From Marinilabiliaceae bacterium (lineage in GTDB: Bacteria; Bacteroidota; Bacteroidia; Bacteroidales; Marinilabiliaceae): a stretch of DNA of 42,756 nt. Each line of letters opens with the position of its first letter. Positions within the stretch are counted from its first letter, which is position 1. Location: contig JAEINY010000021.1 in the NCBI GenBank assembly GCA_016342595.1, forward strand, positions 1 to 42,756. Reading direction: 5' to 3'. Of the stretch, positions 7,019 to 25,496 are shown in pieces. The notes beneath the pieces are model-generated. The model did not search any database and was not told the DNA's origin. It saw only the letters and a list, made by a program, of their open reading frames with translations. Both the position numbers and the translations under genes were made by a program.

Positions 7019-7672
7019 TTATGCCACCATTAAATATTCAGTAATTAACCAACTCACAAAGGCGATTATAACTAATACCACAATTGAACTACCGGCAATT
7101 TTATTAATCCAAAAGAGTCGTCGAAGGTTAATTTTACTCCGAAACAAATTCACTAAACCACTCAGTGTAAACCACCACAGGGAGGCTCCGGCAAATATAC
7201 CAACTACTAAGACCACTTGTTTCAAACCGGTACTGTCCGTTTGGACGACCCGAAACGCTGTGAAAAGGGCCATCAATAAAAAGACCGCTAAAGGATTCGA
7301 AATGGTCAATAAGAAAGTGGAGAAAAAATCCTGAGCCAGACTTCTGTTGCGTTTCTTCTGCTTACGTAACTGCACGGCGGGATTAGTATAAAAGATCCGT
7401 AATCCCATTCCGATAAGAATAATGGCTCCAATTATCTGTATCCACAAAATCTGAGTTTCTATAAAACCAATGATGAAGGAAAGACTGAAACCGGCAATAA
7501 TGGCATAAATGGTATCCGACATAGCTGCCCCCAATCCGGAAATGAAACCTGATAAACGGCCTTTATTTAATGTACGCTGAACACACAACACACCAATCGG
7601 CCCTAAAGGAATAGAAGCCAACAACCCAATTATAACCGCACTCAATATGAAACTCAAACTCATTATTAACAT
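7019..7672 (-). CDS. LysE-family amino-acid exporter
   Basis: This is an inner-membrane translocator of the LysE/RhtB superfamily, 217 aa. About six hydrophobic segments are visible (residues ~5-25, 40-62, 67-88, 115-137, 148-170, 190-212). The family-type motif near the N-terminus reads SIPLGPIGVLCVQR, followed by the small-residue segment GFISGLGAAMSDTIYA. It probably exports an amino acid or a related small metabolite; the substrate cannot be read from the sequence. The start at 7672 is an ATG. A second in-frame ATG at 7663 is equally possible. It is divergent from the phosphate transporter and convergent with the thioesterase operon. Confidence 0.88.
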   Translation of the reverse strand: MLIMSLSFILSAVIIGLLASIPLGPIGVLCVQRTLNKGRLSGFISGLGAAMSDTIYAIIAGFSLSFIIGFIETQILWIQIIGAIILIGMGLRIFYTNPAVQLRKQKKRNRSLAQDFFSTFLLTISNPLAVFLLMALFTAFRVVQTDSTGLKQVVLVVGIFAGASLWWFTLSGLVNLFRSKINLRRLFWINKIAGSSIVVLVIIAFVSWLITEYLMVA

Positions 7673-7863: not shown

Positions 7864-7921
7864 TTAACATTGTTTTAACATGACATTTTATTCTTAACAC
7901 AAATTTAACACTCGCTTAAAA
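7864..7921 (+). promoter_or_regulatory. PHO-box-like TTAACA direct-repeat array
   Basis: TTAACA occurs at 7864, 7875, 7894 and 7905, with TTAAAA at 7916. Within each cluster the spacing is exactly 11 bp, one helical turn (7864/7875 and 7894/7905/7916). Direct TTAACA repeats at this phasing are the classical target of PhoP/PhoB-type regulators, best documented in Bacillus. The array ends about 30 bp upstream of a TAnnTTTG box, as expected for an activator site, and the gene behind it is a phosphate transporter. Confidence 0.6.
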
Positions 7922-7952
7922 TAGGCTCAATACGCTACTGATATCGACTTAC

Positions 7953-7960
7953 TATGTTTG
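7953..7960 (+). promoter_or_regulatory. Promoter -7 box (TAnnTTTG) of the phosphate transporter gene
   Basis: TATGTTTG fits the Bacteroidota -7 consensus TAnnTTTG exactly. Transcription would begin near 7967, about 27 bases before the ATG at 7994. That argues against the longer open frame starting at 7958. No convincing -33 TTG is seen, which is compatible with an activator-dependent promoter. Confidence 0.55.
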
Positions 7961-7993: not shown

Positions 7994-10252
7994 ATGGAGA
8001 ACATTTATTTTATTTTGGTCATTGTGTTGTTTGCCTTGGCCATTTCCGATTTGGTTGTCGGAGTCAGCAATGATGCTGTTAACTTTCTTAACTCCGCTAT
8101 TGGAGCTAAAGCTGCACCCTTTAAGGTGATTATGATTATTGCCGCACTGGGCATTCTTTTTGGAGCCACCTTCTCCAGTGGAATGATGGAAGTGGCACGA
8201 AAGGGAATTTTTAACCCGCAGTATTTCTATTTTTCGGAGATCATGATCATATTCCTGGCGGTTATGATCACAGATGTGATCCTGCTTGACCTGTTCAACA
8301 CCTTTGGAATGCCCACCTCAACCACCGTATCCATTGTGTTTGAGCTTTTAGGAGCAGCGGTGGCTGTAGCGTTGATCAAGGTCATGAATAACCCGGAAAT
8401 TCCGCTAAGTGAATACATCAATACCGCCAAGGCACTGGCTATTATATCAGGAATCCTGTTATCCGTAGTCATTTCCTTCTCCGTGGGAGCCATTGTACAG
8501 TTCTTCACCCGGGTTTTGTTTTCATTTAATTATTCTAAACGGTTAAAATATTTAGGTGCACTGTGGGGTGGAATCGCGATATCTGCTATCACCTACTTTA
8601 TCCTTATTAAGGGAGCAAAAGGGGCTTCATTTATGGATAGTGCCGCCAAAGAGTGGATCAAAGGTAACAGCTTCCTTATTTTAGTTTATAGTTTTATTGG
8701 CTGGACAATAATACTCCAAGTGGCCAAACTAATCTTCAAAGTGGATCTTTTAAAAATCATTGTTCTCGCGGGAACCTTTGCTTTGGCAATGGCTTTTGCA
8801 GGGAATGACCTGGTCAACTTTATTGGGGTGCCATTAGCCGGTTTTGAATCATTTAAAATTTTTAACGCGACTCCGGGAGCAGCGCCTGATGGATTATTGA
8901 TGTCCTCCTTAGCCGGAAAAGTGAAAACAGATACTTATATGCTAATCATTGCAGGTATCATCATGGTGGTTACCTTATGGACATCCAAAAAAGCCCGGGG
9001 CGTTGTAAAAACATCACTGGCCTTAAGCCGTCAGCACGAGGGCGACGAGCGCTTTGGTTCCAGTTATTTTGCACGTTCCATTGTGAGAGCATCGATTAAC
9101 TTATCCAATGGTTTATCAGTTATTGTTCCTGCCGGAATTAGAAATTCGATCAGTCGTCAATTTGACTCTTCGGCCTATGAAGAAGAACGTCAAAAACTAG
9201 GTGAAGACGCCCCTAACTTTGATATGATCCGTGCTTCAGTGAACCTGGTTGTGGCCAGTATTCTGATCGCTATTGCTACCAACATGAAATTACCACTCTC
9301 TACCACTTATGTAACCTTTATGGTGGCAATGGGTAGTTCATTAGCTGACCGGGCCTGGGGCCGTGAAAGTGCTGTGTATCGTATTACAGGGGTACTCTCT
9401 GTGATTGGAGGATGGTTTTTCACTGCTTTTTCAGCCTTTACTGTTGCTTTTATAGTAGCTCTAATTATTAGTTGGAGTGGTCCTGTTGGTATCTTTGCAC
9501 TGGTTATTTTGGCAGCATATATCATGTTCAGAACGCATGCCATGCACAAAAAAACGGAGAGTGAAAAAACCGAAATTAAGGATATTGAAATTGAAGAGGT
9601 AAACGGAGAGATCCTGGCCGAAAAAGTACTTGAAAAATGTAAAGTGAGTGTATCAGATACCCTCCAAAAGGTATCTACTCTATACGGACAAACTATTCAT
9701 GACTTCGAAGCCGAAGATCGTAAAGGGCTAAAAAACATCTCAAAGGAAATTGCCACCTTAAATAAGAAGACCAAGAAGCTTAAAAATAATGTTTACACCA
9801 CCGTCAGAAAGCTGCAGGAGCAATCCATTGATTCCAGCCTGTATTATGTGCAAGTTCTGGATTACTTAAGAGAAACCGCTCATTGTTTAACCTTCATTGC
9901 CGATCCGTGTTTCCAACACATCGATAATAATCACAAGGTATTTAAGCCTGAACAATTTGAAGATTTAAATAACTTGAAGGTTGTTGTCACTGATTTATTG
10001 GATACGGTCACTCAAATGATCACTTCAGGCGATTACGCAGGTATCGACGGTTTATTGGAGAAACAACAAAACGTACTGGAAACCATTCGCCTGAACCGTA
10101 AAGCTCAGCTAAAACGCATTAAAAACGACAAAGCGGGGACTAAAGTGAGTATGTTGTATCTTAATATACTTCATGAAACTCAAAACATGTTATTGCATTT
10201 AATAAACTTAGCGAAAGCACAACGTGACTTCGTAGATTTTCAGTCTAAATAA
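7994..10252 (+). CDS. PiT-family inorganic phosphate transporter with PhoU-like C-terminal domain
   Basis: This is a sodium- or proton-coupled phosphate permease of the inner membrane, 752 aa. The two inverted PiT repeats are evident: the first signature is GVSNDAVNFLNSAIGAKA near residue 30, and the second is GNDLVNFIGVPLAGFES near residue 275. About ten to twelve membrane segments run to residue ~520. The last ~220 residues are hydrophilic and helical (TLNKKTKKLKNNV, YYVQVLDYLRETAHC) and resemble the PhoU/DUF47 helical-bundle family, so transporter and regulator appear fused. The start follows from the -7 box at 7953. A TTAACA array upstream suggests phosphate-starvation control. A hairpin terminator follows, then a porin gene. 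Confidence 0.92.
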   Translation: MENIYFILVIVLFALAISDLVVGVSNDAVNFLNSAIGAKAAPFKVIMIIAALGILFGATFSSGMMEVARKGIFNPQYFYFSEIMIIFLAVMITDVILLDLFNTFGMPTSTTVSIVFELLGAAVAVALIKVMNNPEIPLSEYINTAKALAIISGILLSVVISFSVGAIVQFFTRVLFSFNYSKRLKYLGALWGGIAISAITYFILIKGAKGASFMDSAAKEWIKGNSFLILVYSFIGWTIILQVAKLIFKVDLLKIIVLAGTFALAMAFAGNDLVNFIGVPLAGFESFKIFNATPGAAPDGLLMSSLAGKVKTDTYMLIIAGIIMVVTLWTSKKARGVVKTSLALSRQHEGDERFGSSYFARSIVRASINLSNGLSVIVPAGIRNSISRQFDSSAYEEERQKLGEDAPNFDMIRASVNLVVASILIAIATNMKLPLSTTYVTFMVAMGSSLADRAWGRESAVYRITGVLSVIGGWFFTAFSAFTVAFIVALIISWSGPVGIFALVILAAYIMFRTHAMHKKTESEKTEIKDIEIEEVNGEILAEKVLEKCKVSVSDTLQKVSTLYGQTIHDFEAEDRKGLKNISKEIATLNKKTKKLKNNVYTTVRKLQEQSIDSSLYYVQVLDYLRETAHCLTFIADPCFQHIDNNHKVFKPEQFEDLNNLKVVVTDLLDTVTQMITSGDYAGIDGLLEKQQNVLETIRLNRKAQLKRIKNDKAGTKVSMLYLNILHETQNMLLHLINLAKAQRDFVDFQSK

Positions 10253-10402: not shown

Positions 10403-11407
10403 ATGCTAAAGAAAACATTATCCACTTTCATAGCATTCGCGCTATTTGCAGGTGTTCATGCACAAGAAAAAGAAGAATTTAAGCCACATGGCAAAGTAGA
10501 AGGCCGCATCTTTGCAAACTTCAATGCTGATGTAACAGGTGATGGCGAAGCTAAAGCGTTCGAATTAAAAAGGGCTTATCTGGGCTATTCATATCAAATT
10601 ACTCCTGAATTAAAAGCTAAAATCAAACTGGATGTAGGAGGAAGTGAATTTATTCAAGAAGATGTAGAGTCTCAATATGCCTATTTTAAAACAGCCGCAG
10701 TCTATTATGAAAAGGACAATTGGTTTGTGGCATTTGGTCTGCACGACACCTATCAATTTAAAGTACAGGAAAAACTTTGGGGCAAACGCTATGTGTTGCC
10801 TTCTATGCTGGATAAACAGAAATTTGATTTCAGTGCTGATATCGGGGCTTCTGCAGCTTACCATTTTGATAATGTATCGCTTGATTTTTCCCTGTTTAAC
10901 GGCGAAGGCTATAAACAATTGCAACAAGATGATGCCTTTAGAGCAGGACTGGGCGCCACCGGATACTTACTGGATAGAAAGATCATCCTGCGTGGATATA
11001 GTGATTATTCATCACACGATGTGCATTTAGCCTCTTATACCGGTTTTATCGGCTTGGATATGGATAAGTGGTCATTGGGAGCTGAATACACTTTCCAGGA
11101 TAACTATGCATATATGGAAGGTCATGATCGTAATGCCTACTCTTTATTTGGTCAGTACAACTTTACACCAAAATTTGGAGTATGGGCCCGAGTGGATGGT
11201 ATTTCTTCAGATTTCGCTTCAGATGTGGATCCGGAGTACGTAGATAAATGGCAAAAAAAAGACGGCACCTACTTTTACCCGGGTGTGGAATACATCATTG
11301 TTCCAAAACACCTAAAAGCTTCCTTTAATTATCATCATCATGTAGACGATACGGCTGGTAACCATGAAGATGGTCAGATTTTCTTTAATATCGAAGTGAG
11401 ATTCTAA
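10403..11407 (+). CDS. Outer-membrane porin, OprP/OprO-like
   Basis: This is a predicted beta-barrel outer-membrane porin, 334 aa. It has a signal peptide (~1-20, ending GVHAQ) followed by alternating amphipathic strands, for example FELKRAYLGYSYQI and KAKIKLDVGG. It ends with a typical barrel C-terminus (IFFNIEVRF, terminal Phe). The AYLGY segment and overall layout fit phosphate-selective-type porins. Its position right after a PiT permease supports phosphate uptake across the outer membrane, but selectivity is inferred. The ATG at 10403 is preferred over 10364 because it places the signal peptide at the N-terminus. The separate terminator before it suggests its own promoter or read-through. 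Confidence 0.85.
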   Translation: MLKKTLSTFIAFALFAGVHAQEKEEFKPHGKVEGRIFANFNADVTGDGEAKAFELKRAYLGYSYQITPELKAKIKLDVGGSEFIQEDVESQYAYFKTAAVYYEKDNWFVAFGLHDTYQFKVQEKLWGKRYVLPSMLDKQKFDFSADIGASAAYHFDNVSLDFSLFNGEGYKQLQQDDAFRAGLGATGYLLDRKIILRGYSDYSSHDVHLASYTGFIGLDMDKWSLGAEYTFQDNYAYMEGHDRNAYSLFGQYNFTPKFGVWARVDGISSDFASDVDPEYVDKWQKKDGTYFYPGVEYIIVPKHLKASFNYHHHVDDTAGNHEDGQIFFNIEVRF

Positions 11408-19038: not shown

Positions 19039-22000
19039 TTATTCCTCTTTATGACAGGGAATGGTAAATACAAATTTACTCCCTTCACCGGATTGACTTT
19101 CCGCCCATATTTGCCCCTGGTGTCGTTCAATAAATTCACGACACAGAATTAATCCCAAACCGGATCCTTTTTCTCCATAGGTTCCTTCTTTGCTACCTTG
19201 TTTCTCACCAATTTTAAAAAGGTTCTTTAACCGCTCCACTCCAATGCCAATTCCGTTGTCGTTCACAGAGACTGTTACTGTCTTGTTCTTTCGCTCAACG
19301 ATTATATCAATCTTACCCTCTCCATTAACATACTTAATAGCATTACTCAATACATTTCTGAAAACAGTGGCAATCATGTCCCTATCAAATACAGCTTCAG
19401 TCTCGGTCAGCACATTAACATTAATTGAGATTTTCTTCTCGTTTAAAGAGTGCTGCATCAATTCAATACCCGATTCGATAATGGCCGTTAAACTATTTCT
19501 CTGCGGATCAAAATTTATTTCTTTGCGTTGGGACTTAGCCCACAGCAACAAGTTATCTAACAGTTTATAAGTGTATTCAGTGGAAGTTCTCAGGGTGTTT
19601 AAAAAATGTCGAATCTCCTCCTCACTAAAATCATTTAGGTCTTCAGTTAATAATTCCAGAATAGAATTTGATGTACCTAGCGGGCCACGTAAATCATGTG
19701 CGATGATTGAAAAGAAACGGTCTTTGGTAGCATTCAATTCTTTAAGCTGATCCCGAACGGCTTCCAGTTCCTCTTTTTGCTCTTGTAAAACGAGATTTTT
19801 GATGGATATCTCTTTGGTGCGATCCGACACTTTCTGCTCCAATGTATTAAACAAGCGTGCATTGCCCAATGAAACGGCCAATTGCGTACACAAAATGGTT
19901 AATACACTAACCCTTTCACGGTTAAATACCCGTGCCGCCAGATTATTCTCAAGGTATAAAATACCCGTGATTTTAGATTGGGCCAATATGGGCAGTACGA
20001 TGATTGACTTTAAGTTATTCTCCTTGATGTATGGATCTTTTCGATAATTCACGTCGTTCGCGGCATCCGCCAAAATAACCATCTGCTTGGTTCGTTCAAC
20101 CAGATTAATTACCGGTACTGGCACTATTTGCTCCCATACCTCTTGTTTTCCCAAACTAACCGTTATTCTATTCTTATTGACGGTTCCAATGGCCTCCAGA
20201 GACAATTGCTCATTCACATCATCTTTCAACCAAAATAGCCCACGTTGTGCCCCAGCTTGCTCCAAAATGATTTTTAATGTCTTCTTGATCAATCTGGATA
20301 AAACAATTTCTCCGGAGATCGTCTTTGCAGCATCTAAAATAGTTGCCAAATCAATATCATCTGCCACCGTTGAAGTAGCTGAATGACTGGTTCTGGAGGT
20401 AGATACCTGAGTCGCTTTGGCGATGGCATCAGGATATAATATGTACTCTCCATAATGGTTCATTAAAAAATCAGCCTTGCCTTTACTTCCCCATATATCA
20501 TATAATTTATAAGCCTTACTAAGATTCAGCTGAGCCAATTCAAAATTCTTGACATCGATCCAAAATTTGCCAAACAACTCTCTGGCCAATGCTTCCATTT
20601 GAATATTATTCTGACCAAAGGCATTCTCAGAAGCTTTTGTATAATGATTAATCGCACTTAATGTTTGCCCTTTAACACGGCTCAATTCTGCTTCTACCAA
20701 GTGATAATAGACCGAAAAATTCATATGCGCGTAATTCATCCATGTTTTCATGCGCTTTTGATTGGCTGTCACTACACGCCTGGACTTTCTACGAAAAAAT
20801 GAGTTTTGATCTTTATAATTGGCTAAATAATTGAGTGATTCATAACAATAATAAACAGGTAAGACCACCAATCCACTGGAAGATTTAATGTATTGCTTTG
20901 ACTCCTCAAGCATTTCCTTCACCTCATCATACTTCTCAAAATGAAATCCTATGGTAATCTTGTTAAGATAAATCATAAACAAAGAAGTATCATCCTTTTC
21001 TTGATAATGATAGGATATCATCTCTTCCTCATTGTAGATCTCTCCAATTAGTTTCTCCGGCGAAATAGAACCATGCTGAAAATTGAAAACCATTTGCTGG
21101 ATCAGATTCAATTGACTGAATACAATCTCCTGATGATATTGAGATAAGGTTTGCGAGAACTGATGAATCTTATTTTGAATATCTTTCAATTGATACCCTG
21201 CTCTGAAACCATAACTTGCCCAGGCCACAACAGTACTTTGCATCGTTTCAAAATCACCCACCTCTTGCGCTTTATGATAACATTGAAAGAAATCGTTGAT
21301 GACATCGTCCATGGCTTCCTTCCACGGCCGCACGCCTACATTAAAGAGGTAAAATGCTTGTGGCCAATGTTCCTTGTTTTCCATCCGGTCAAATAAACGC
21401 ATGCCAGCCTGACTCAATTGATAATCCTGATCAGTATTGCTAAACATGGCATTACTCAACAATGAATAAGTCACAATCCCCACAGGTGAAATTGGGGCGA
21501 CACCATGCTTCAGTGTCAATCGCACCAACTTAAAAACGATGAGCATGAGTAAATTGGGATTTGCCCGATACAAAATACTAATCATGCTTCCCATCACTTT
21601 CATGGCCATCAGTAATACCTGATCTGTCATGATAGGAAGGTCTTCCAGGTTGTTTTGGTGAGATTTCAACAACCAGCGCGTCTTCATCACAAAATATAGC
21701 ACATGATGTAGCCCAGGCTTCGAGGGTAAACCTATTCCCAATCGCTTTAACAACACAAGCGATTCCTGAATGGCTTTTTGTTGCTGATTTTGTGAAATAA
21801 GCGCTTTAATACGAATGGTGCTAATTCGAGCTTTGTCTAATAAATTGGTCGAATACAATTGTAATACCTGCAAAAGGTGATCCATGTTGGTATACTCACC
21901 ACAATAGGCTGCTGACTCGGCTGCATTCAAATGCAACTCATATGCCAAATAGAAATCAGATTCCCAATCTTCGTCTGTTAAAAGAGCTAAGCCCCGGTTG

Positions 22001-24306
22001 GCATAATCATACGCAATTTTATAAGCTCCCGATTTTAACACTCTTTTACAAGCCTGCATGTTCAATTTGGCAATACTTAACCGTTCATTGGCTTCAATCT
22101 CATTAATGGCTTTATTAAAATGCCCCAGTATATTAAACAGATCATCCCCTATAACTTTCTCGTCATGCCTATTTAATAACAACCGACCTATGTGAAGATG
22201 AATAATGGATTTTGTGTCGCCATCAATCTGACTATAAACAGCATGCTTTATTTTGTCATGAAGAAACCCGTAATTAACAATCGTATCTATATCATCAAAC
22301 TGAATGGTAGAATAACCATCTAATGAATAAATAAAACGCTCCTCAATAGCCACTTTAAATATCTTATCGATAGTTGACAGTGGTTTATCTGTCATATTAC
22401 TCAATGTGTTCCGGTCAAAGCGCGGCCCTAAACAAGAAGCTAACTTTAATATCTCCTGCGTTTCCTCATCTAATGCTTCCAAGCGCTGGCTGATCAGATC
22501 AACAACATTATCGGTCACTTCCGTTCGTTTGATTTCATCATAATTAAAAACCCATTGGCCTAAAGATGTATCAAACGACACCATCTTCAGGGGGTATAAA
22601 TTACTGAGAAACTCAATCAGGAAAAATGGATTTCCGTTTGTTTTCTGAATAGAAATCGCTGCTAACTTATTCACATCAGAACGCGAACACGCAAAGGAGT
22701 CAGCAACCAAATCCCTGACATCCTGCACATTCAACGCTTCTACTTTTATTTCTACCCGATGCGTTCTAATTTTCTCCAAATGATGAAGTACCGGTAGTAG
22801 CGGATGTCCCAATGTTATTTCGTTATCGCGATATGACAACACTAACATAAAGGGATGATTGGAATTATTTCCAATTAACAATTCAATAATTTCAAGTGAT
22901 GCAGAATCCACCCATTGTAAATCATCCAGAAACAGTACCAATGGATGTTTTTCACTGGCAAACACCTGTACGAAACTGATAAAGCTCAGCACAAAACGAT
23001 TATGCGCCTTAAGCGGTAGTTCTTGCGGAGCAGGTTGCTTGCCAATGATTAATTCCAGCTGGGGAATAACTTCTACAAGCAAATGGGCATTTCCTTTTAG
23101 GGCATTTAATATGGATTTACGCCACCTCCTGATCTCTTCTTCAGGCTCTGTCAATATTTGATTGATGAGTTTCGAAAAGGCCTGAATAAATGCTACATAA
23201 GGGATGTTTTTATCGAATTGCTCAAATTTACCTGTTAAGAAATAACCATTCCGTTTTTGGACAGGTTGCTGTAATTGATTGACCAAAGATGTTTTTCCAA
23301 TGCCAGAATAGCCCTTTACAATGGCAATACAAATCTCTCCTTTACAAGACCTCTCAAAACAACCTTTAAGTTGGTTGATTTCCGCATCCCGGGCATAAAG
23401 CTTCTCGGGCACTGTGAATCGTTTTACAATATCCTGTCGACCAACCGGATAATCATCAAAACTCAAATTAGCTTCCAGATGTATGACACAAGCTTCCAGA
23501 TCTTTAATAATTCCATAACTACTCTGATAACGATCATCCGGCGATTTGGAAAGGAGTTTCATGACCACATCAGATAGGGATTTGGGAACCAGCAAGTTTT
23601 TGATGTAGAGTTCAACCGGCTGACGGGCCACATGACAATGAATCCATTCCCTGGGATTATTGGCCTTGAAGGGTATCTGTCCGCATAATAACTCATACAA
23701 AATAATGCCTAAGGAATAAAAATCACTCCTATGATCTACCGGACGATTTACCCGACCTGTTTGTTCTGGCGAGATATAGGCATAAGTTCCCTCCAAATGG
23801 CGCAAATGAATTGAATCCTGATCCCCATCAAAAATTTCTGCAGCTAAGCCGAAATCAATCAATTTTAACTTTTCTCTGTCTTCACTAAAAACAATATTGT
23901 TAGGATTGAGGTCCTTGTGTACTATATTTTGATCATGAACAGCAGCCAGGGCCCTACATACTTGAACCGCCAGCCTTAGCACTTCAATTAGCTCCTCTTT
24001 GATTGTAACCGGTGCAATTTGATGAATATAATCCTGCAAAGTCTCACTTCCAAAATCCTCAAAAACTATAGCCAGGCTATTATTGTGCTTTATCAATTCA
24101 ATGGATTGAATCACATTTTCAGACTGCATGGAGTTCACCAATTCATATTCACTCCTAAAACGTTCCATTTTTTGAGCATCCGCATACTCATGCCTTAAAA
24201 CCTTCAAAATAAATGAATGATCTTCTGCATCAACAGCTCTATATACTAAAGTCCTATCATTTCTGGATAGCTCTTCTTTTATTATATATTCATTTATTCT
24301 CTCCAT
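19039..24306 (-). CDS. Giant Ser/Thr kinase - AAA ATPase - GAF - histidine kinase hybrid
   Basis: This is a 1755-aa multidomain signalling protein. Residues ~5-275 form a Hanks-type Ser/Thr kinase with lysine in ILKVL, catalytic VHKDLNPNN, DFG (D151) and SPEQTGR. Next is a STAND-like ATPase with Walker A GYSGIGKTS (~332-340) and Walker B LVLFLDDLQWVD (~456-467). A long helical TPR-like region runs from ~600 to 1280. A GAF domain (~1320-1480) precedes a short coiled coil, a HisKA domain with FSIIAHDLRGPLG, and a HATPase with NAIKYV, DNGIGIG and GSGLGL. This order matches known cyanobacterial and proteobacterial hybrids. The ATG at 24306 is chosen over a TTG at 24318. It follows two hypothetical genes in one operon. 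Confidence 0.94.
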   Translation of the reverse strand: MERINEYIIKEELSRNDRTLVYRAVDAEDHSFILKVLRHEYADAQKMERFRSEYELVNSMQSENVIQSIELIKHNNSLAIVFEDFGSETLQDYIHQIAPVTIKEELIEVLRLAVQVCRALAAVHDQNIVHKDLNPNNIVFSEDREKLKLIDFGLAAEIFDGDQDSIHLRHLEGTYAYISPEQTGRVNRPVDHRSDFYSLGIILYELLCGQIPFKANNPREWIHCHVARQPVELYIKNLLVPKSLSDVVMKLLSKSPDDRYQSSYGIIKDLEACVIHLEANLSFDDYPVGRQDIVKRFTVPEKLYARDAEINQLKGCFERSCKGEICIAIVKGYSGIGKTSLVNQLQQPVQKRNGYFLTGKFEQFDKNIPYVAFIQAFSKLINQILTEPEEEIRRWRKSILNALKGNAHLLVEVIPQLELIIGKQPAPQELPLKAHNRFVLSFISFVQVFASEKHPLVLFLDDLQWVDSASLEIIELLIGNNSNHPFMLVLSYRDNEITLGHPLLPVLHHLEKIRTHRVEIKVEALNVQDVRDLVADSFACSRSDVNKLAAISIQKTNGNPFFLIEFLSNLYPLKMVSFDTSLGQWVFNYDEIKRTEVTDNVVDLISQRLEALDEETQEILKLASCLGPRFDRNTLSNMTDKPLSTIDKIFKVAIEERFIYSLDGYSTIQFDDIDTIVNYGFLHDKIKHAVYSQIDGDTKSIIHLHIGRLLLNRHDEKVIGDDLFNILGHFNKAINEIEANERLSIAKLNMQACKRVLKSGAYKIAYDYANRGLALLTDEDWESDFYLAYELHLNAAESAAYCGEYTNMDHLLQVLQLYSTNLLDKARISTIRIKALISQNQQQKAIQESLVLLKRLGIGLPSKPGLHHVLYFVMKTRWLLKSHQNNLEDLPIMTDQVLLMAMKVMGSMISILYRANPNLLMLIVFKLVRLTLKHGVAPISPVGIVTYSLLSNAMFSNTDQDYQLSQAGMRLFDRMENKEHWPQAFYLFNVGVRPWKEAMDDVINDFFQCYHKAQEVGDFETMQSTVVAWASYGFRAGYQLKDIQNKIHQFSQTLSQYHQEIVFSQLNLIQQMVFNFQHGSISPEKLIGEIYNEEEMISYHYQEKDDTSLFMIYLNKITIGFHFEKYDEVKEMLEESKQYIKSSSGLVVLPVYYCYESLNYLANYKDQNSFFRRKSRRVVTANQKRMKTWMNYAHMNFSVYYHLVEAELSRVKGQTLSAINHYTKASENAFGQNNIQMEALARELFGKFWIDVKNFELAQLNLSKAYKLYDIWGSKGKADFLMNHYGEYILYPDAIAKATQVSTSRTSHSATSTVADDIDLATILDAAKTISGEIVLSRLIKKTLKIILEQAGAQRGLFWLKDDVNEQLSLEAIGTVNKNRITVSLGKQEVWEQIVPVPVINLVERTKQMVILADAANDVNYRKDPYIKENNLKSIIVLPILAQSKITGILYLENNLAARVFNRERVSVLTILCTQLAVSLGNARLFNTLEQKVSDRTKEISIKNLVLQEQKEELEAVRDQLKELNATKDRFFSIIAHDLRGPLGTSNSILELLTEDLNDFSEEEIRHFLNTLRTSTEYTYKLLDNLLLWAKSQRKEINFDPQRNSLTAIIESGIELMQHSLNEKKISINVNVLTETEAVFDRDMIATVFRNVLSNAIKYVNGEGKIDIIVERKNKTVTVSVNDNGIGIGVERLKNLFKIGEKQGSKEGTYGEKGSGLGLILCREFIERHQGQIWAESQSGEGSKFVFTIPCHKEE

Positions 24307-24314
24307 ACCTGGTA

Positions 24315-25496
24315 TCAATTCAAATGCCCCGCTACTACTGCTTTGTTGTTATTAAACTGCGTTGAAATCTTAAAAATGTATGCAAACCCAATCCATATAA
24401 TCCAATTGTATATGCCATAAGGCAAATATCCAAAGAGTCCTTCAAAAGGCATTTCAAACACATAAAACCGATCCACATATGGCACACTGTATATCCAATA
24501 ACCGGGAACAATTGTAGAAAAAGGATGATGAAAAGCGCTGAAAAAGTTTACTGTTTCATGAATCAACCCGATAATTAACTCCGCAAAGCCAATCAATGCT
24601 AAGGGGGTCCAGTTTCCTTCACGTGCAATGGGCCTGAAAGGCGTCCATAAGCCAATCATATCAAAGGCCACACTTAAAATTATAACTGGTCCCAGCCATA
24701 CCATCGGGAAAAGAATATTTGGAAAGTAGGTGATCAGGAATATGGATAACAAGCTAATTACCATGGCCCCAGTTTGAACCGGTTTAGATAATGTAATTTT
24801 AGGGCCAAAGGAATACCGGCGTCCTAATGCTTTAAAGGAGTTTAAAAGCATATAACCTTCAAAGGCAAACGGAACCAATACACCCCCTCCAACAATAGCA
24901 TAGACATAAAATGCCAATGTAGAAATGCGAGCCGCTTCCGGGTAATACCAATTCACACCAACATAGAAACTCAGGTACTCAAAATAGCCCCACGCAAAAG
25001 CTGAACAGCACGCCATCCAAACTAAATTCCATGGTTTATCACCTAAGATAGAATGCCCATTGGTGCGTTTATACACCCAGCCATCAGTAGCAAAAACGAT
25101 TCCCCAGATAATGGGAATAAATCCTAAATTCAGTATGTAAGTCGCCGACTCAATATGTCCAAATAAAAAGACAGCATCAACTGATGAAACCACCAGGCCT
25201 GCCCAAAACCACCAGGGAAATTTTCCTTCACTATTAGTTGCCTGCCTGTTCTCAGGTCGTTTAAAACCAAACCACCAAGGATAGATATAAAGCAAAACGA
25301 CAAATGCAATTGGAAACAATAATCCAATAAATACAGGCCCGCTAAAACCGGGCTTGGCTGTCACTTCAGTAGGTGGGAAATAAAATAAATGACTTGGAAA
25401 TTCACCTTTATAATAAATCAAAGCACCCAATAGCGGCACTACTAAAATGGCGAAAACAGTAAGTATTACAAGAAAATATTTAGTTCGCTTCGACAT
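24315..25496 (-). CDS. Polytopic membrane protein of unknown function
   Basis: This 393-aa protein has about ten hydrophobic segments (e.g. FLVILTVFAILVVPLLGALI, FIGLLFPIAFVVLLYIY, FYVYAIVGGGVLVPFAF, GAMVISLLSIFLITYF). A notable conserved-looking stretch near the C-terminus reads FEMPFEGLFGYLPYGIYNW. Tryptophan and tyrosine are abundant near the predicted membrane edges. No transporter or enzyme family is recognised with confidence. Its first 17 bases overlap the end of the upstream gene (stop at 25480), and its stop lies eight bases before the giant kinase. Tight translational coupling suggests the three products work together, perhaps with this one as the membrane sensor or target. Confidence 0.82.
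   Translation of the reverse strand: MSKRTKYFLVILTVFAILVVPLLGALIYYKGEFPSHLFYFPPTEVTAKPGFSGPVFIGLLFPIAFVVLLYIYPWWFGFKRPENRQATNSEGKFPWWFWAGLVVSSVDAVFLFGHIESATYILNLGFIPIIWGIVFATDGWVYKRTNGHSILGDKPWNLVWMACCSAFAWGYFEYLSFYVGVNWYYPEAARISTLAFYVYAIVGGGVLVPFAFEGYMLLNSFKALGRRYSFGPKITLSKPVQTGAMVISLLSIFLITYFPNILFPMVWLGPVIILSVAFDMIGLWTPFRPIAREGNWTPLALIGFAELIIGLIHETVNFFSAFHHPFSTIVPGYWIYSVPYVDRFYVFEMPFEGLFGYLPYGIYNWIIWIGFAYIFKISTQFNNNKAVVAGHLN

Follow-up and report, generated by a model that had tools for sequence, protein, structure and literature searches.

The sequence analysed here, hereafter the window, is a stretch of 42,756 nucleotides that corresponds to contig C416 of the 6.76-Mb assembly of a Marinilabiliaceae bacterium (GCA_016342595.1, contamination 6%). 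It carries a gene for a PiT-type phosphate transporter, whose product matched PF01384 at 93.1 bits for a cut-off of 33.7 (the search was run on 7997-10252, one codon shorter than the gene), and whose closest protein among named genomes, with 75% identity, comes from a Marinilabiliaceae bacterium. The gene that follows is probably the second one of the PiT transcript; a homologue is found behind PiT in 5 of 12 named relatives that were looked at out of 14. On the other side, many relatives carry, in divergent orientation to PiT, an ORF whose start resembles by eye that of the LysE-family gene of the window. A 1759-aa ORF is also present in the window (19039-24318, minus strand). The features of the region are the following.

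7019..7672, minus strand: divergent LysE-family exporter (PF01810)
7864..7880, plus strand: distal TTAACA pair (7864 and 7875), 11-bp spacing, 89 and 78 bp from the -7 box
7894..7899, plus strand: repeat 1, TTAACA, 59 bp before the -7 box, conserved array
7905..7910, plus strand: repeat 2, TTAACA, 48 bp before the -7 box, conserved array
7916..7921, plus strand: repeat 3, TTAAAA, 37 bp before the -7 box, conserved array
7927..7932, plus strand: repeat 4, degenerate TCAATA, 26 bp before the -7 box, consensus nMAAYA over 25 aligned promoters
7953..7960, plus strand: TATGTTTG, -7 promoter element, fits TAnnTTTG
7994..10252, plus strand: PiT-type phosphate transporter, 752 aa, ATG at 7994, Pfam PHO4
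10403..11407, plus strand: outer-membrane-type protein, weakly Porin_O_P-like (20.5 bits, cut-off 20.9)

TAnnTTTG is the consensus of the -7 promoter element of Bacteroidota. The initial annotation of this DNA had reported TTAACA at 7864, 7875, 7894 and 7905 and TTAAAA at 7916, phased by exactly 11 bp inside each cluster and ending about 30 bp before an exact TAnnTTTG box. All five hexamers were found at these positions, the phasing inside each cluster is exact, and the box lies 31 bp past the hexamer at 7916. As 19 bp separate 7875 from 7894, the distal and proximal clusters are in different phase. Coincidence had been judged unlikely, and this was borne out: among 20,000 dinucleotide shuffles of the 321-bp intergenic region, none gave the triple of repeats (1 mismatch in 18) or two exact pairs, and 5 gave one exact pair.

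Conservation of the array and of its distance to the -7 box

PiT relatives were present in 47 of 61 genomes, and loci were taken for the best 30 of these 47. Two of the 30 loci, L082 and L083, were dropped, their start not being identified, so that 28 upstream regions were used, that of the window included (a later look at the two dropped loci gave L268 without the array and L269 with it). A triple at 11-bp spacing was found in 26 of the 28 regions with at most 2 mismatches in 18, and in 27 with at most 3. At spacings of 7-10 and 12-17 bp, no triple with up to 3 mismatches was scored in any of the 28, and the reversed-strand triple at 11 bp was seen in none at 2 mismatches and in two at 3. Exact pairs followed the same rule, with 24 of the 28 regions having one at 11 bp and none at other spacings.

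The distance to the promoter is fixed as well. From the start of the third repeat to TAnnTTTG, exactly 37 bp were counted in 24 of the 28 regions; the remaining four comprise a one-letter variant of the box at 37 bp, a box at 25 bp, and two regions with none in place. A profile of 25 rows, window included, was then aligned on the triple (L075, with a triple and no box, L079, with the box at 25, and L080, with neither, were omitted). Two blocks stood out in columns that had played no part in the alignment, at +33 a fourth repeat reading nMAAYA and at +59 the box; no conserved counterpart of the distal pair was present in the 25 rows. The conserved unit is therefore made of four 11-bp repeats, at 7894, 7905, 7916 and, in degenerate form, 7927, and the distal pair at 7864 and 7875 is an auxiliary site or a local one, whose phase does not match that of the proximal repeats. 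The extent first given to the array thus needs correction at both ends: its proximal repeats are conserved, its distal pair is local, and a repeat at 7927 has to be added. In a set of 14 named PiT relatives, which overlaps in part with the organisms of the 61 genomes, the triple (at most 2 mismatches) was found in 8, a partial one in 2 and none in 4.

The -33 element had been described as weak, and this was confirmed. TTG or TTTG at a spacer of 16-22 was found in only 1 of the 25 promoters with an exact box, which means that the element is missing, and the fourth repeat sits roughly in its place, at the usual -33 distance. An operator placed at the -35/-33 element is a trait of Pho boxes, and the PiT array shows it, the -33 element being absent in 24 of 25 and the fourth repeat standing there; it also shows the tandem direct repeats with an 11-bp period.

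Distribution of the arrays within and across genomes

The initial annotation had proposed a scan for TTAACA pairs at 11 bp, its reading being refuted if such arrays were as frequent before genes unrelated to phosphate. Taken bare, the pair does not discriminate: up to 2 mismatches, it gave 13 matches in the window for 9.9 expected, and up to 1 mismatch, 88 in the whole assembly against 101 for the reversed control, without enrichment, so that the TTAACA word alone is uninformative. The triple set against TAnnTTTG does discriminate, as reported below.

Nine exact pairs TTAACA-N5-TTAACA exist in the assembly, two of which are those of the PiT promoter. The pairs of C113, C176 and C372 are inside ORFs; that of C60 belongs to a kinase-linked class of arrays (see next section). 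Those of C394, C417 and C419 fall between genes, among which inspection by eye revealed none for phosphate. A triple-like array at C399:5735-5762 was discarded, being inside an ORF.

When triple and box were combined, two matches were obtained in the assembly and none in the control: the PiT promoter and C134:10661-10727. As this pattern was written after both sites were known, it shows only the absence of others. The C134 site precedes a TonB receptor gene, which comes after a second PiT gene; this receptor and a lipoprotein-like gene (no Pfam family) adjoin the second PiT. Both promoters keep the 37-bp distance from third repeat to box, the second repeat is TTAAAA at C134, and the geometry of the TonB-receptor promoter is kept in G019. 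In the 61 genomes, a triple-plus-box pattern that recovers only the PiT site in our assembly, given the TTAAAA of C134, yielded 25 matches for 2 in the reversed control, and 23 of them stand directly before PiT. This pattern was itself drawn from PiT promoters, and the freer survey of the phylum described below weighs more.

With the conditions relaxed to an exact pair and a box separated by 28-58 bases, 58 matches were obtained in the same genomes against 7 in the control. Sorted by coordinates and by eye, these rows comprise 27 before PiT (24 loci), 6 before phoR, 9 divergent from a sensor kinase, 1 before pstS, 1 before a gene followed by a PstS match (G016), 1 before a polyphosphate kinase gene (offset 66) and 13 others, a minority of whose genes were named.

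The same search in 247 genomes of the phylum produced 70 matches for 13 in the control. The offset from the first repeat to the box, free to take 31 values, was 48 in 23 rows, 59 in 16 and 70 in 5, that is 44 of 65 rows for 6.3 expected; the 65 rows (2 of our own and 3 with offsets 73-75 by coordinates were left out of the 70) are non-independent, many coming from related genomes and several from one genus (g51). These preferred offsets step by 11 bp, which sets the arrays of the phylum in register with the box. Downstream genes were looked at for 49 loci of the 70 rows, and Pfam gave the following names.

Porin_O_P above cut-off: L204, L239, L242, L248, L249
PiT: L238
PstS: L250; L236 (offset 49); L248 (offset 65)
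PstC-type permeases: L219 (with a PBP domain), L251
TonB receptors: L233 (offset 50), L237, L240, L243, L245, L246
DUF1573 cluster of 7 and MarR cluster of 4 (one of each scanned), and others

A filter blind to the genes was then applied, in which repeats at +22 and +33 together had at most 4 mismatches. It retained 15 rows, or 13 promoters, which precede 4 porins, 5 TonB receptors (with a putative phosphate role), 3 pst genes (L219, L251 and, recognised as PstS by eye, L247) and 1 outer-membrane barrel (L234). With the looser pair-plus-box pattern, MarR, DUF1573, kinase-linked and unrelated genes come in as well. The proposed association with phosphate genes is thus seen in relatives for the triple-plus-box pattern, which was derived from PiT promoters, and over the phylum for arrays with four good repeats; it is mixed for pair plus box, and is not found for the bare pair. 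A common core word in the regulon, another trait of Pho boxes, is seen before PiT and the TonB receptor in our assembly, where pstS is negative; in other genomes it stands upstream of pst, porin and phoR genes. In one genus, an exact TTAACA pair lies 48 bp before the box of MarR-type genes (L211, L213, L216, L218; one scanned).

The pstS gene of the assembly (C445:36757-37845, minus strand) matches TIGR00975 above cut-off and has pst-type genes behind it. Upstream, the best direct triple had 6 mismatches, and only a reversed pair with 1 mismatch was found. Among 21 strong PstS loci, a pair was seen in 4, a weaker pair in 1, and none by eye in 14; L088 and L091 were left unjudged, as the ORF picked was the neighbour of pstS. 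A second, weak PBP-like match, in C315, looked by eye more like a regulator of the LysR type.

Six matches to the OmpR-type DNA-binding domain exist in the assembly. One of them, C88:1335-2030, lies behind a PhoR-like kinase gene, and its best NCBIfam model is the PhoB of Bacteroides (214.6 bits, cut-off 270), followed by the family PhoB (212.3 of 296.2 bits); the kinase itself scored 269.2 of 400 bits with PnpS and 244.8 of 334.2 with PhoR. The genome that carries a Pho box should also encode a PhoR/PhoB pair, for which the C88 genes are candidates with every score under its cut-off. In relatives, phoR is divergent to the second PiT gene. The end of C134, with the second PiT, and the start of C88, with phoRB, are contig ends in our assembly. 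They probably lie side by side in divergent orientation, the arrangement of G019 and G011.

Upstream of our phoR, a TTAATA/TTAACA pair is present. In 16 of 30 phoR upstream regions, a pair was found whose last hexamer lies 50-51 bp ahead of the box, and this layout was absent in the other 14 (4 from other families, 10 from the family of the window). Across genomes, the PiT array was scored in 33 of 36 that have a close phoR, versus 1 of 9 that do not (triple with at most 3 mismatches or pair with at most 1, tallied by hand, relatedness left in, and leaving out the PiT matches of G008 and G048 and second PiT copies). The exceptions are the PiT genes of G040, G041 and G049, without array despite a close phoR, and that of G044, with an array and no close phoR. 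Outside the family of the window, the array was found in 8 of 11 genomes with a close phoR.

A second class of arrays with another spacing

The 9 of 58 pair-plus-box matches that are divergent from a sensor kinase include one of our own, C60:18803-18869 on the minus strand (L186). The others are the following.

G011:C99; G027:C19; G014:C50; G035:C47; G026:C55; G010:C121; G048:C555; G058:C118

Seven of the nine precede small secreted proteins rich in Lys and Cys, that of G058 precedes a longer secreted protein, and that of G048 meets the contig end. In C60, the regulator behind the kinase is RprY-like (NF051850, 254 bits of 370), and the best models of the kinase are PnpS and PhoR, far below cut-offs. 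The existence of this second class means that TTAACA arrays are not by themselves a mark of phosphate genes.

The two classes were compared by scoring repeats three and four at 22/33 or at 21/32 in 109 distinct matches. The 22/33 spacing fitted better in 26 of 29 PiT promoters, 7 of 8 TonB receptors, 6 of 6 porins, 5 of 5 pst and 3 of 4 phoR (none of these strongly), and 21/32 in all 9 kinase-divergent arrays and 6 of 7 DUF1573 arrays; 3 of 4 MarR arrays were ties. Of the PiT exceptions, two fitted 21/32 better, though poorly, and one was a tie; none was strongly 21/32. The array of the window (L119) has 1 and 2 mismatches at +22 and +33, and 3 and 4 at +21 and +32. It falls outside the RprY-linked class, which was set up here and is provisional, as 22/33 fits it better and its divergent gene encodes LysE. 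Judged on these sequences, putative phosphate-type arrays can be told from kinase-linked and DUF1573 ones by where their third and fourth repeats stand. Six arrays of DUF1573-type genes from other families (L207, L210, L217, L220, L226, L227; one gene scanned) combine a +32 repeat with an offset of 59 to the box, and three of them (L207, L226, L227) are divergent from a kinase-like ORF by eye.

A spacing code may underlie this split. We propose tentatively, and with somewhat more doubt than belief, that paralogous PhoB and RprY-like regulators would both read TTAACA and be told apart by repeats at 0-11-22-33 versus 0-11-21-32. In either case, steps of 11 bp would tie the array to TAnnTTTG, the box that belongs to the sigma factor particular to this phylum. 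Such a code is testable by shifting two repeats by one base.

Candidate regulator and comparison with known Pho boxes

We consider it highly probable that the PiT array is a Pho box, that is, four 11-bp direct repeats that PhoB would bind to activate transcription under low phosphate. This was the reading of the initial annotation, and it gains support from the conservation of the array, its locked distance to the box and the phosphate-type genes in whose company it occurs. Against it count the bare pair, which shows no enrichment, the want of a direct array before our pstS and before most PstS loci judged by eye, the phoR regions without the layout, the PiT genes that depart from the phoR rule, PhoB and PhoR scores under cut-off, the arrays before genes unrelated to phosphate, the OprP porin and phoR of F. 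johnsoniae, which were respectively not and hardly induced, and the contamination of the assembly. PhoB appears to be the likeliest binder. At low phosphate, PhoR would phosphorylate PhoB, and this OmpR-family protein would bind the four repeats head-to-tail, probably as two dimers covering about 7894 to 7937 in place of the missing -33 element. It would thereby bring RNA polymerase to the box at 7953, and PiT, probably with the following outer-membrane gene, would then be transcribed.

Another OmpR-family regulator, for instance the RprY-like protein encoded at C60, might bind the array instead, with PiT answering an envelope or sodium signal. Its appeal lies in the kinase-divergent arrays with their RprY-like neighbour, in the link with sodium reported for RprY of P. 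gingivalis, which is said to be tied to this ion, and in PiT carriers, which can be sodium-coupled. The spacing argues otherwise, as all kinase-divergent arrays prefer 21/32 and most PiT arrays 22/33; moreover, the presence of the PiT array goes with that of a close phoR from genome to genome, and our phoR has its own pair upstream. We therefore regard binding by RprY or a similar regulator as improbable.

Even less probable, in our opinion, is that PhoB uses the array to repress or fine-tune PiT. PiT is a low-affinity carrier, often thought constitutive and often not induced, which would suit such a role. No PiT induction was seen in the excerpts of a study of F. johnsoniae (PMC8115612). In the boxed promoters, however, a repeat occupies the place of the missing -33 element, which points to activation, and the same geometry stands before the TonB receptor gene, whose positional counterpart in F. 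johnsoniae is strongly induced according to these excerpts. Finally, coincidence can practically be dismissed, and so can an A+T-rich UP element or a bending tract that no specific regulator binds. In their favour, the reversed control gives no fewer matches than the bare pair, but no shuffle reproduced the triple, the repeats occur at 11-bp spacing only with the word kept and the box distance fixed, and the register with the box recurs over the phylum.

With respect to what is in print, the 11-bp repeat Pho box is known, as is, from the excerpts at hand, a TTTAACA motif for a Bacteroidota PhoP. In the literature searched, which left most subscription journals outside and was in part available as excerpts, a Pho box of Bacteroidota locked to TAnnTTTG, its recurrence in the phylum and the 22/33 versus 21/32 split were not found. 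The published work on phosphate control in this phylum that was retrieved, again partly as excerpts, consists of expression data, EMSA and one DAP-seq motif, with no promoter architecture. A fixed distance to the -7 box would allow Pho regulons to be predicted from sequence throughout the phylum, and the PiT carrier becomes a candidate Pho target in relatives of Marinilabiliaceae.

The Pho box bound by PhoP of Bacillus subtilis is made of TTAACA-like repeats at 11 bp. The PiT array has the same hexamer and spacing, and several repeats too, and differs by its phylum, sigma factor and promoter. The Pho box of E. coli stands in the -35 region, and the PiT array likewise at -33. In the excerpted description, the E. 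coli box bound by PhoB has two 11-nucleotide direct repeats in which CTGTCAT is most conserved (PMC4415409); both are thus 11-bp tandem repeats upstream of phosphate genes, whereas the PiT array has a TTAACA core, four repeats and 11-bp steps from TAnnTTTG. Pho boxes have also been predicted near plcP in marine bacteria, and B. fragilis PhoB binds the pstC promoter (PMC4796936 and PMC3547664, in excerpts).

Closer by descent is the DAP-seq motif of Riemerella anatipestifer PhoP, in which TTTAACA is most conserved and which was likened to ArcA in the excerpts of its report (PMC9603813); neither 'pst' nor 'Pho box' occurs in the text. It shares with the PiT array the phylum, the core word and a binder of the PhoP/PhoB type, and, unlike the PiT array, is described in these excerpts without a register with a -7 box.

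At the PhoBR locus of F. johnsoniae, phosphate depletion induced a TonB receptor (8.02) and a lipoprotein (9.91; log2 by the usage of the text), while the OprP porin was not induced (-1.3, FDR 0.25) and phoR hardly was (0.76), according to the excerpts of a text in which the word 'promoter' is absent (PMC8115612). PhoRB likewise neighbours a TonB receptor and a lipoprotein gene in G019 and, across the contig break, in our assembly, the match being one of position and type; induction was measured in F. johnsoniae, as the excerpts report, and in our assembly the box is seen in the DNA alone.

The RprY-type regulators (NF051850) are OmpR-type as well and stand beside TTAACA arrays, but with repeats at 0-11-21-32; their arrays precede genes for small secreted proteins or DUF1573 genes instead of phosphate genes. 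In two texts on RprY (PMC6032018, PMC3646045), neither 'motif' nor 'consensus' occurs for this regulator.
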